Shown here piece by piece: positions 49,030 to 53,566 of a stretch of DNA of 64,000 bases (positions are counted from its first letter, which is position 1; every line of letters begins with the position of its first letter). This stretch comes from Pyrococcus kukulkanii (GTDB lineage Archaea; Methanobacteriota_B; Thermococci; Thermococcales; Thermococcaceae). The notes under the pieces are model-generated. The model ran no database searches and was not told the DNA's origin. It saw only the letters and a program-made list of their open reading frames with translations. The stretch covers positions 124,001-188,000 of the forward strand of contig NZ_JARRIB010000001.1 of assembly GCF_041647995.1 (NCBI RefSeq), in the 5' to 3' direction. The position numbers and the translations under genes are program-made.

Positions 49030-49043
<14 letters not shown>

Positions 49044-50304
49044 CTCTTTTCTTGAATCTTATCTTTGCTGTAAGGATCTTTTCCGTTCTAAAGAACCAGG
49101 CGGTAGCATAGAGGGTTCCCAGGGACACCAAGGCAAGGTAGGCTATGCTCATGTACATTTTAGAGTACTCTCCTAGGATCATTGCCCTCGAGGCAATTAT
49201 AGGATGACTGAATGGGATCGCATAGAGAATGTACTTTACGACGGTGGGAAGAGTTTCAACGTCAACAATCATAAATGTAAAAGTTGGAAATAGCAAGGGC
49301 ATCATGACCGTGCTTACTAGAGTGCCAGCACTCTTAGTGTCTTCTGCAAAGGTTCCAAGTAGCATGGAGAGGGAGATAGCAAAGGTTATCGCTAGGAATA
49401 TTATGACTGCAAAGAGAACCATGCCATAGGGGGTAATTTTTAATCCGAGATCCTCGAGCTTAATGTTAGAGTTCATTCCTAGGCTCGAGAAGTACCTGCT
49501 CATTCCGAACATGTAAGCTAGGGCAGCTATTAGTCCTAGGATAGCACTTCCCACCATCTTCCCAGCAACAATTGCCGTTCTTGAAACAGGGAGAGTAAGC
49601 AGGGTCTCCAATGTTTTATTCTCCTTTTCGCTTGCCATAGTACTAGCAGCCATTTGAGAGACCATCGTAAACATTATGAATACGACAAGGGGGATCGAAA
49701 ATGCCTGAGAAGCTATAACACCAGAAACAACCGAAGGAGGAAGGTTTATCACCCTTCCCTTGAGCACAGAGTAGCTCTTCACGTTTATCGGATGAAGCAC
49801 CGCCTCGGGGTTAGGATAGTTGGACTTCAGCTTAAGCTTCGCAAGCTCTTCATTTAGAACGTTTATTACGGCATTTATCCTGCCTTCACTCACGCTCTCC
49901 TTCATTCCGAGGCTCATGCCTGTGAATATGCCATAAACTTCAACCATCGCCTTTTCATTCTCTTCTATGCATTCCGAGAAGTTCGAAGGGACAACGACGA
50001 GAACGTTGTAGCCTTTAGAAGTCGCAATCCTTAGCGCTTCATCGATGCTTTTAGCTTTAATCTCAACGACTGTAACATTAGGAGCAATTTTTAAAGTCTT
50101 TATCAAAATATCAGCGTAATTCCCAGAGTCAAAGTTTGCGATTACCACCTTCGTCTCCTTCTGGGCCTGTTCCATGCCGATCTGCACCATTTGCCCAAGC
50201 GCAGGATAAAGGACGAGAGGGACTATTATTAATCCGATGATAACCCCCCTATCCCTAAACATATCTTTTAGCTCTTTCATTAAAATTACCATAAAATCAG
50301 ACAT
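49030..50304 (-). CDS. ABC-2 family permease (NatB-like)
   Basis: 424 residues: one N-terminal membrane helix, a large extracellular domain (about 45-200) and five or six C-terminal helices (VVFIMFTMVSQMAASTMASEKENKTLETLLTLPVSR carries the ABC-2 signature). It resembles the Na+ exporter NatB. It is the last gene of the six-gene operon and overlaps its ATPase gene by 8 bp. Confidence 0.88.
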
Positions 50305-51022
50305 TCTTGATCGCCTCCATAAACACCTCTTCTAAGTTCTCAGCGTTATACTTAGCCTTCAACTCCTCCGGCTCACCTATCTCAACAATCCTTCCCTTAT
50401 GGATTAATGCCACCCTATCGCAGAGGTACTCAACCTCAAGCATGTTGTGGCTCGATATTAGGAAGGTCACCCCTTCCTTAACGAACTCCTTTATCGTCTT
50501 CCTTATCTCAAAGGCATTCATTATATCAAGCCCGCTCGTCGGTTCATCAAGAATGGCAAGCTTTGGTTTGACCATTAGAGCTCGAGCTAGAAGAAGCCTC
50601 CTCGTCATGCCCTTAGAGTACGTTGAAACCTTGTCCCTAAGCCTCTCACCAAGCCCACTCAGTTTTATTCCCAGCTCTAGCATCTTCTCGGCTTTCTTGT
50701 TATCCTTTGCGTAGAGCTTAGCCATGAATTCAAGGTACTCCAACCCTGTCAGCCTCTTGTAAGCTCCAGCCTCTTCGGGAAGGTAACTTATGAGCTTCCT
50801 AACTTCCTCGGCCTCTTCAACTACATCATGCCCAAATACCTCGGCCCTGCCCCCCGTGGGCGTTAGCAGAGTGGCCAGAATTCTCAATGTAGTGCTTTTA
50901 CCTGCCCCATTTGGACCTATTAAGCCGAATATTTCCCCCTCCTCTATTGTAAAGCTAATTCCCTTGAGTGCCTTGACTTTCCCGTAATCCTTCTCAAGCT
51001 TTTCAACCTCAACCGCCACCAT
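50297..51022 (-). CDS. ABC transporter ATPase (NatA-like)
   Basis: 241 residues. Walker A IGPNGAGKSTTLRI, Q-loop in SYLPEEAGAY, signature TYSKGMTRRLLLARALM, Walker B KLAILDEPTSGLD and switch His in LISSHNMLEVEYL. It is the partner of the NatB-like permease and is preceded by a small membrane protein, overlapping it by 14 bp. Confidence 0.93.
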   Translation of the reverse strand: MVAVEVEKLEKDYGKVKALKGISFTIEEGEIFGLIGPNGAGKSTTLRILATLLTPTGGRAEVFGHDVVEEAEEVRKLISYLPEEAGAYKRLTGLEYLEFMAKLYAKDNKKAEKMLELGIKLSGLGERLRDKVSTYSKGMTRRLLLARALMVKPKLAILDEPTSGLDIMNAFEIRKTIKEFVKEGVTFLISSHNMLEVEYLCDRVALIHKGRIVEIGEPEELKAKYNAENLEEVFMEAIKNV

Positions 51023-51368
51023 GCTTAACCCTCCCGATCTTGTAGACTATTATTCCAAGAGTTGCCAGGGCAATTCCAAAGAGGAGGAGTTCGTAAATCT
51101 TGGAATATCCACCAACAAACGCAAATCCAAGGCCAGTACTAACTGCCAGCCATCCGTTCCTCTCGTGGTAGTTCTTAAACTCGTGATTTAAGGCAAGAAA
51201 CAAGGCACCCACCATTATTAAGCCAAGCTCGAGGACTAAAAAGAACGGGTTTATTCCAGTCATCACCTGTCCGGTGGTCATGTCGATACATGCAAGCCTG
51301 TCTAAGGGTGGCCTCACGATGGAGAGTGCTATCCCCAAGAGGTAAACTATCAAACCAGCCCACTTCAT
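51009..51368 (-). CDS. Small membrane protein in ABC operon
   Basis: 119 residues with four predicted membrane helices (GLIVYLLGIALSIVRPPL, FLVLELGLIMVGALFLAL, WLAVSTGLGFAFVGG, ELLLFGIALATLGIIVYKIG). No family recognised. It lies between the XRE regulator and the ATPase gene, and overlaps the latter. Confidence 0.7.
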   Translation of the reverse strand: MKWAGLIVYLLGIALSIVRPPLDRLACIDMTTGQVMTGINPFFLVLELGLIMVGALFLALNHEFKNYHERNGWLAVSTGLGFAFVGGYSKIYELLLFGIALATLGIIVYKIGRVKHGGG

Positions 51369-51387: not shown

Positions 51388-51585
51388 TTAGTCCTCATCA
51401 TATATGAATATATCCTCAATTTTAACTCCAAAAAAGCGGGCTATTTTAAACGCAAGTTTTAAAGAGGGATCGTACTTCCCCTTCTCTATCGCGATTATCG
51501 TCTGTCTAGTAACCCCTAGAGCTCTGGCCAACTCTTCCTGGGTTAGACCATAGGCCTCTCTAAACTCCCTAAGCCGGTTCTTCAC
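51388..51585 (-). CDS. XRE family transcriptional regulator (small, Cro/CI-like)
   Basis: 65 residues, a single helix-turn-helix domain: [56 protein letters not shown]. This YozG/PH-type regulator is often encoded beside small membrane proteins and ABC exporters. It is the third gene of the operon, directly after the 92-residue gene, and is the natural ligand for the double operator at 52259-52290 (inference). Confidence 0.93.
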
Positions 51586-51864
51586 TCACATCACCCTTGA
51601 ATAGTAGTACCTCAGAAGGACATGACCAACTATAGCTACGATATACGCCATAACAACTATGGACTTTGGGTCAAGCACGCCAACATCTATCCCTACTAGA
51701 CCGGCAAGCAACAAAGCTTGAAGAAATATCAAGGTCTTCTCGGCGGCGATCGGATTTATCCTTCTCCCTCTCTCGCCCTTAAGGCCTCCCATGTTCTTCA
51801 GGGAGGTGTACAGGAAAGCGAAGTAAACGATCGTCAAGGCGATAACCACAAATAGAACATTCAT
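51586..51864 (-). CDS. Small membrane protein ending YYSRVM
   Basis: 92 residues with three membrane helices (VLFVVIALTIVYFAFLYTSL, TLIFLQALLLAGLVGIDVGV, SIVVMAYIVAIVGHVLLRYY). Its last ten residues, LLRYYYSRVM, nearly repeat the end of the protein encoded upstream (ILRIYYSRVM), so the two may be distant paralogues. It is adjacent to its neighbours with no gap. Confidence 0.78.
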   Translation of the reverse strand: MNVLFVVIALTIVYFAFLYTSLKNMGGLKGERGRRINPIAAEKTLIFLQALLLAGLVGIDVGVLDPKSIVVMAYIVAIVGHVLLRYYYSRVM

Positions 51865-52245
51865 CTACATCACCCTTGAGTAGTAAATCCTTAGGATCAT
51901 GTGAGTGATCATTATTGTAAATAGCAATAAGCCCGAGAAAGCCATAAGCCCCTTATAGGAACTATCACTCCGAACCTTCGTTGAAAAATAAATCATAGAG
52001 ACAGCCAGGATTGTTAATATAACCTGAAGGGTCCTCCTTGCCGAGATCTCCTCTATCCTTATCGTTCTCTCATCTTCAAGTATATACCCCTTCTTCCTCA
52101 GGAAGTCATAATAGAGGTTCAGGGTAACAGCTCCCAGAGCAAAAACTATCATCGCCCCTACAAAGCTTCCCCTCCCAACGCTCCACCCTAGAAGGGCGCC
52201 CATAGTCATTATAATCCCTAGTGGTACTATTCTTTCAACTTTCAT
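51865..52245 (-). CDS. DUF2178 family membrane protein
   Basis: 126 residues, four membrane helices; the central motif GYILEDERTIRIEEISARRTLQVIL is the DUF2178 signature. It is the first gene of the operon that includes the XRE regulator and the ABC exporter. The ATG at 52243-52245 follows GGCGGAGG; the double operator lies 13 bp upstream. The proteins are thought to be regulated membrane components, role unknown. Confidence 0.83.
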   Translation of the reverse strand: MKVERIVPLGIIMTMGALLGWSVGRGSFVGAMIVFALGAVTLNLYYDFLRKKGYILEDERTIRIEEISARRTLQVILTILAVSMIYFSTKVRSDSSYKGLMAFSGLLLFTIMITHMILRIYYSRVM

Positions 52246-52258
52246 CCTCCGCCACCAT

Positions 52259-52290
52259 GTAAAGTTTCCTTTACGTAAAGTATTCTTTAC
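52259..52290. promoter_or_regulatory. Double palindromic operator GTAAAG-N4-CTTTAC x2
   Basis: Two perfect 16-bp palindromes, GTAAAGtttcCTTTAC and GTAAAGtattCTTTAC, directly abutted (32 bp). On the minus strand the TATA box GTTTATAAAGC lies at about 52296-52306, so the expected transcription start (about 52275) is inside the operator. A dimeric repressor bound here would block transcription; the XRE protein of the same operon is the best candidate. Confidence 0.85.
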
Positions 52291-52291
52291 G

Positions 52292-53566
52292 TTAGGCTTT
52301 ATAAACTTTTCCCTTTAGGAAATCGAGAAGGGAGCTCTGCTTCGGCTTTGGGGCTTCCTCCTCAATTTTTATTTCCAAATCTTCTAGATCGCTGATATTA
52401 GCATTCTTTATTTCGTCAGGAAGCTTAATCTCTCCGTATTTGCCTCCTCCCCCAGGGATAACTATCAATTTACCATTCCTATAGGCCCAAATTGCCTTTG
52501 CAACATCTTCATGAACCTTCGCGAGCGTTTGGATAGGAACGTCAACTAAAACCCTTATTTCGCTCCCGAACTCCTTAAGGAACCTTTGCCATACTATCTT
52601 AACGGCCTTAGTTTCAACGCCTTTGCCTAGAACCATAGCAATTATCTCCGCCAGAGGGGCAAGCCTCAAATAGGGAGGCCTATCCTTTGGCCTCTCGTTG
52701 GTATCAGAAAGCTCGAGAATCCTATCCCTAACCCCCTTCTTGATCGTTCCACCACACTTCGGGCACTTCCACCTCAATGCAACTGCATCCTGAAGAGTGT
52801 ACTTAGTGTAACAGCGAGAACATGCAGTCAGGTGGTACTTGCCCAGTCTTGGATCTAAGCCTGCGTTGAGAACTATTCTCCTGCCTCCCCTCTTTAGTAT
52901 GGCCTTTCTAATTTCCTCAAACGTTACCTCCTCCACCTTGAATCTGTTGAACTCCCTTCCCAGCCTATGGGGCTGAGGGGAGTGGGCATCGGAATTGCTT
53001 AGGTAAGTTAGCCTGTGATGGGCTTTTATCATGTCGGCCATTTCCGAATCTGCCGAAAGGCCAAGCTCAAGAAAATCAACCTTTGCATCCTCGTAGGCCT
53101 CCTTTAGGGAATTGTACTCCTTGTAAAGGGCCGTCCATGGGGTAAAGGCGTGGGCAGGGCCTATGAGGATATCAAATTCATTAGCTATCTCGGCTATTTC
53201 AGCCGCACTCAAGTTTACGCGTGGCCTGCCCTCCGTATCTATATCCTGGGAGTATTTCCTAAGGATGTCCCTGAGCTCGTGAACCTGGCTCAGCGATGGG
53301 AAAATTAGAAGGTGGTGAACCCTCCTATTGTCCTCAACTTCTGCTGTGAGAATAAACCTGATCCCTTTAACCTCAAAAGTCCCATCATCAACTCTTTTGG
53401 AGTACTTAAGTAACTCCTCCTCCCATTTTGGGTTGAATATATCCCCAGTTCCAACCAATCCCAGGCCCTTAAGCTTGGCGTTTTCAGATATCACAGGATA
53501 TATCATTAGCTTCGAGACGGCCTTTGAATAGTGAGAATGAATATGAAGATCTCCATCAACAAGCAT
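52292..53566 (-). CDS. Endonuclease Q (PHP-domain DNA repair nuclease)
   Basis: 424 residues. PHP domain (DGDLHIHSHYSKAV, EVEDNRRVHHLLIF, GPAHAFTPW, NSDAHSP) with metal-binding His/Asp/Glu; a zinc finger CSRCYTKY...CPKCGG (about 270-300); and a helical C-terminus ending KQSSLLDFLKGK, a PCNA-binding PIP-like box. EndoQ of P. furiosus (PF1551) nicks 5' to hypoxanthine, uracil, xanthine and abasic sites, in deaminated-base repair with PCNA. It is upstream of the DUF2178 operon; the operon promoter lies in its last codons. Confidence 0.9.
   Translation of the reverse strand: MLVDGDLHIHSHYSKAVSKLMIYPVISENAKLKGLGLVGTGDIFNPKWEEELLKYSKRVDDGTFEVKGIRFILTAEVEDNRRVHHLLIFPSLSQVHELRDILRKYSQDIDTEGRPRVNLSAAEIAEIANEFDILIGPAHAFTPWTALYKEYNSLKEAYEDAKVDFLELGLSADSEMADMIKAHHRLTYLSNSDAHSPQPHRLGREFNRFKVEEVTFEEIRKAILKRGGRRIVLNAGLDPRLGKYHLTACSRCYTKYTLQDAVALRWKCPKCGGTIKKGVRDRILELSDTNERPKDRPPYLRLAPLAEIIAMVLGKGVETKAVKIVWQRFLKEFGSEIRVLVDVPIQTLAKVHEDVAKAIWAYRNGKLIVIPGGGGKYGEIKLPDEIKNANISDLEDLEIKIEEEAPKPKQSSLLDFLKGKVYKA
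52296..52306 (-). promoter_or_regulatory. TATA box of the DUF2178/XRE/ABC operon
   Basis: GTTTATAAAGC on the minus strand, located within the last codons of the endonuclease Q gene, directly upstream of the double operator. Confidence 0.65.

Follow-up and report, generated by a model that had tools for sequence, protein, structure and literature searches.

CylR2 of Enterococcus faecalis is a small repressor that works together with a membrane partner, CylR1; a peptide that acts on CylR1 lifts the repression, in a way still to be worked out, and the genes for both proteins lie divergent from the cytolysin genes under their control (PMC5454873). In archaea, LrpA (P. furiosus) and MDR1 (Archaeoglobus fulgidus) are repressors that bind on the downstream side of the TATA box and exclude RNA polymerase (PMC2995911), and a palindrome conserved across the Thermococcales, that of the TFB-RF1 regulon, controls ABC-2 transporter operons (PMC5937170). 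Here we analyse a 32-bp element in a 64,000-nucleotide stretch of the Pyrococcus kukulkanii genome (the window) that invites comparison with all three. We consider it probable that this element is the double operator of its operon's own XRE protein, acting in negative autoregulation, with a membrane protein of the DUF2178 family most likely releasing the repressor. Sequence comparison supports the operator, its placement and its coupling to the XRE family, and we infer that the XRE protein would bind the site and exclude polymerase.

The paired palindrome, its promoter and its operon

Two 16-bp palindromes, GTAAAGTTTCCTTTAC and GTAAAGTATTCTTTAC, abut to span positions 52259-52290, exactly as the first-pass annotation had described them: GTAAAG-N4-CTTTAC elements with identical arms and different centres. 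Relative to the operon on the minus strand, the putative distal (upstream) operator reads GTAAAG-AATA-CTTTAC (52275-52290) and the putative proximal operator GTAAAG-GAAA-CTTTAC (52259-52274), and both are exact palindromes. A genome scan for more such sites, which that annotation had proposed, returned the window pair as the sole exact sites in the 2.05-Mb genome, where base composition would predict 0.17 single sites and ~1.5e-8 abutting pairs by chance. When a wider regulon was sought in the same genome, six one-mismatch sites were found besides the two exact ones, versus four in all with the reversed control, and no clear further targets emerged. A chance origin of the palindromes is ruled out by their genome-wide uniqueness, the reversed-pattern control and their conservation.

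Along the minus strand a BRE-like element (GGGAAAAG, 52306-52313) precedes the TATA box (TTTATAAA, 52298-52305), followed by the two operators, a GGTGG ribosome-binding region and an ATG at 52245. With a usual TATA-to-start distance of ~26 nt, counted from the TATA centre, the predicted transcription start falls at ~52275, where the two palindromes meet. The TATA box does lie, as previously annotated, inside the neighbouring gene for endonuclease Q (EndoQ; 52292-53566, minus strand), which scores 738 bits to the solved P. furiosus EndoQ (PDB 5zb8) and is a neighbour outside the switch. Of the 79 Thermococcaceae loci, just 5 have a detected EndoQ gene immediately ahead of the operator, and three genomes carry it and the XRE gene on different contigs, so the overlap is accidental to the genus. 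The C-terminal end of EndoQ, QSSLLDFL, resembles a PCNA-binding (PIP) motif (52292-52350, minus strand), and the TATA box of the XRE operon occupies the same stretch.

The operon is tightly packed, with all of its six genes on the minus strand. Its XRE regulator is, as first annotated, a 65-residue protein of the same operon (51388-51585; Pfam HTH_3, E 5e-21); the earlier reading is refined in that two small membrane proteins open the operon. The first, of 126 aa (51865-52245), is a DUF2178 protein (Pfam PF09946, E 4.6e-13) and our proposed sensor, and the second, of 92 aa (51586-51864), clusters with DUF2178-like proteins of relatives and has a weak Pfam DUF2178 match (E 0.04). Downstream of the XRE gene follow a 119-aa membrane protein without a Pfam family and with clustered homologues in 45 relatives (51009-51368), an ABC transporter ATP-binding protein (50297-51022; Pfam PF00005) and an ABC-2 type permease (49030-50304; Pfam PF12698). 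No mention of DUF2178 was found in the open-access papers searched.

The structure model of the XRE protein (pLDDT 94.6) is a helix-turn-helix bundle without a ligand domain, and its best matches by both fold and sequence are DR_2454 (PDB 9k3w, 61% identity) and CylR2 (PDB 1utx, 48% identity; TM 0.96/0.93). It thus shares with CylR2-type regulators a single HTH_3 domain, a length of ~65 aa and, in the model, the CylR2 fold; an adjacent gene for a putative membrane partner is likewise present, in the form of the DUF2178-like genes of this operon and of loci in several other phyla. A type II toxin-antitoxin assignment was rejected, as the best NCBIfam antitoxin match scores 50.7 bits, below the 71.65 cut-off, and the neighbours are membrane and ABC proteins with no recognisable toxin among them.

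Conservation and loss among Thermococcaceae

The double site is present at 79 of the 90 Thermococcaceae XRE loci read (19-24 of 24 arm letters, with all 24 perfect in 68), and the centre GAAA of the proximal element recurs in 70 of these 79. It stands directly downstream of a TATA-like 8-mer at a nearly fixed distance, and this layout, constant across the family, is the placement known for LrpA and MDR1. Mean pairwise identity reaches 0.945 in the operator and 0.68 between TATA box and operator, as against 0.39 on the upstream side and 0.46 on the downstream side. A typical locus begins with the operator, continues with between one and five DUF2178-like genes and XRE, often adds another membrane gene, and closes with the genes for ATPase and permease; the distance from operator to XRE gene ranges from 348 to 2073 bp.

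Eleven XRE loci are without the double site. Four are paralogues, treated below; in four genomes (G003, G010, G035 and G052) the contig ends before reaching the operator; in G082 the XRE contig has 1.6 kb upstream and both exact sites are elsewhere in the assembly; and G040 and G066 have single sites. The last two are natural single-operator variants, G066 looking as if one 16-bp unit had dropped out cleanly between near-identical repeats. Conversely, one genome (G084) carries two complete double-operator cassettes ~900 bp apart, each with a TATA box and then a small membrane-protein gene. One mismatch is seen in each site of G059, and additional exact sites in G022 (position 1531031) and G063 (contig C271) are outside the promoter position and look like chance occurrences. 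Over 94 genomes the co-occurrence of XRE and site is 80/6/1/7 (Fisher p 1.3e-6), a p value that is indicative only owing to shared ancestry, the conservation counts in general not being phylogenetically independent.

Loss of the palindromes from relatives that keep the operon had been named at the outset as the outcome that would count against the operator reading. We found instead that the sites persist with the regulator, the exceptions being a Pyrococcus genome (G009) in which the XRE gene is kept and the distal site has decayed, and the single sites of G040 and G066. Two complete genomes from two genera (G006 and G034, both ~99% complete) have kept the ABC permease and possess no XRE, DUF2178 match or palindrome. 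In G006 (1,738,505 bp) the ABC genes directly follow EndoQ and the whole operator-DUF2178-XRE unit is absent. Having lost regulator and palindrome together while keeping the permease, these genomes argue that the site belongs to the regulator unit and not to the transporter. Beside the ABC genes of G034 there is also a repeat array (800-2000 of the locus) whose frames translate as repeated FNSLGVLLEP and which is CRISPR-array-like.

Six genomes, drawn from two genera, also have a single GTAAAG-N4-CTTTAC site immediately ahead of another ABC-2 permease/ATPase operon. The XRE protein probably acts there in trans, and this second operon is a probable further member of the regulon in those genomes.

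The site and the regulator in other archaea and bacteria

Outside the Thermococcaceae the element occurs beside XRE relatives in Micrarchaeota, Diapherotrites, haloarchaea and Methanosarcina, and in Clostridia, Chloroflexota, one Priestia and one Streptomyces. At least 11 of 12 arm letters are matched at 15 of 65 loci outside the family and the reversed pattern at none, and in the seven of these genomes with exact sites, all exact sites genome-wide are at the XRE locus. Abutting pairs are seen in Micrarchaeota and Diapherotrites (L080 and L089), sets spaced by 21 bp in three loci (L084, L095 and L096), other pairs in two (L119 and L123), and a single site in a Dehalococcoidia locus (L132). Five plasmid loci were taken as a further test of the pairing of XRE and operator: Haladaptatus, whose DUF2178-XRE genes are preceded by two perfect sites at a spacing of 17 bp, fits, as do Streptomyces and Priestia; Deinococcus gobiensis has a weak site, and the motif is absent from the Halobacterium locus. 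Paired sites have centre spacings of 16-17, 21-23, 27 and 43-48 bp, or 1.5 to ~4.5 helical turns, a variety that argues for independent occupancy and not for one fixed tetramer.

DUF2178-type proteins recur beside XRE in Chloroflexota, DPANN, haloarchaea and Streptomyces, and some XRE-operator units (L123 and L323) are without downstream ABC genes. Together with the loss of the whole block in G006, these observations point to DUF2178 as the sensor; taken by itself this assignment, whose basis is gene neighbourhood only, strikes us as having about an even chance of being right. The first-pass annotation had proposed that the switch probably senses the substrate of the ABC exporter; on this reading the XRE protein itself would bind that substrate, or another small molecule, and thereby be released from DNA. 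The Thermococcaceae operons that were examined in their entirety do have ABC genes along with XRE, and six genomes have the site before a second ABC-2 operon, but a 65-aa helix-turn-helix bundle offers no ligand domain, ABC genes are not always present, and in other phyla the partner that recurs is a small membrane protein, of the DUF2178 type or another. We therefore regard substrate sensing by the XRE protein as improbable and did not retain it; the DUF2178 membrane protein is the likelier sensor.

Sequence comparison also supports a coupling of the operator's sequence to the recognition helix of the XRE protein. A second XRE, 58-61% identical to that of the window and found in four genomes (L253-L256: G093:C37, G015:C2, G042:C8 and G002:C1), has a differing recognition segment, VRRETIVFLE, and at its locus TGTTA-N8-TAACA occurs twice with a 21-bp period, right after the TATA box and before the first membrane gene, some half-sites being imperfect. 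Among the loci outside the family, sites matching at least 11 of 12 letters are present at 15 of 26 loci without leucine at one position of the recognition helix versus 0 of 36 with leucine (Fisher p 8e-8), an association to which shared ancestry and base composition contribute, given that the leucine group is mostly Methanomicrobiales. Most Methanomicrobiales relatives are without the motif. A shared operator for methanogens with the VTRQTIL segment was sought and found just in part, as GTTACA-type repeats. Three such palindromes (e.g. GTTACA-TTT-TGTAAC) lie in one locus (L085) ~450-550 bp upstream of a VTRQTIL-type XRE gene, and they are a possible variant operator. Natural recognition-helix variants paired with changed operators provide a starting point for a specificity code.

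The same observations bear on whether the palindromes might instead bind a different, global regulator, with XRE acting elsewhere. Archaeal operons are often under unlinked factors; against this, the site is normally unique to the XRE operon in its genome, is lost along with XRE but not when the ABC genes are lost, and changes where the recognition helix of XRE changes, so that we judge a global regulator very unlikely and take the palindromes as the probable sites of the XRE protein.

In Clostridia two sites (at least 10 of 12 letters) are present in all 30 loci, ~43-48 bp apart in 29, several rows being close relatives. Across the nine Clostridia promoters displayed, the first site overlaps the -35 box (typically ...CTTGACA) and the second comes immediately behind a TATAAT-like -10 box, a placement that also reads as repression. 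An RNA hairpin or a terminator behind EndoQ is scarcely credible and was rejected. Two 6-bp hairpins are possible in the predicted transcript (-10.4 kcal/mol at 37 C), but at 95 C no stable structure is left in the computed fold. No T-run follows the palindromes, the distal palindrome lies no further downstream than the predicted start, most genomes have EndoQ in another place, and the first Clostridia site, covering the -35 box, is untranscribed from that promoter.

Operators normally drift fast, which makes it unusual for one site to accompany one small repressor across archaea and bacteria. It is an evenly balanced proposition, in our estimation, that the CylR2-like XRE protein and GTAAAG-N4-CTTTAC form a conserved cross-domain module, working in archaeal TATA/TFB and bacterial -35/-10 promoters with changes only in the spacing and position of the two sites, and with DUF2178-type sensors. 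That hyperthermophilic archaea, DPANN, haloarchaea, Clostridia, Chloroflexota and Streptomyces share site and repressor makes them a test of one repressor serving two unrelated transcription machineries.

A proposed switch compared with described systems

In the mechanism we propose, each 16-bp palindrome would take up one dimer of the XRE protein, of the CylR2 type. Once bound, the dimers would sit over the start site, immediately past the TATA box, and keep RNA polymerase from joining TBP/TFB, and the operon would repress itself until the repressor leaves the DNA. Release would most likely come through the DUF2178 membrane protein or proteins encoded ahead of XRE, in response to a membrane or extracellular signal, which suggests for this family a role as membrane sensor of an XRE switch. 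Of the compact self-regulating switch originally annotated, the predicted double operator tied to its own XRE is thus strongly supported by comparison, as the sites persist with XRE and are absent from two XRE-less genomes, and the sensing of the exporter's substrate is the part that the evidence does not support. No description of the GTAAAG/CTTTAC motif was found in the open-access papers searched, and a prior one in subscription papers is possible.

With LrpA and MDR1 the proposed repressor would share polymerase exclusion, which we infer for the XRE protein, although they belong to other protein families. TFB-RF1 differs in both motif and mechanism, being an activator with a TCTG-N5-CAGA site upstream of the promoter elements. 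The closest solved structure, the 65-aa DR_2454 of Deinococcus radiodurans (released in 2025), is one for which our literature search found no publication. The 66-aa CylR2 is likewise an XRE protein, and the likeness of the Pyrococcus regulator to it lies in protein sequence, fold and an adjacent membrane-protein gene. Unlike in the CylR2/CylR1 system, the Pyrococcus XRE gene is inside the operon that its product would control, and it comes with a double abutting operator, DUF2178, an ABC-2 exporter and an archaeal host. Autorepression by a CylR2-like protein is a known kind of regulation; what would be new is an archaeal form in which the two operators abut, together with one operator/regulator pair apparently conserved across archaea and bacteria.
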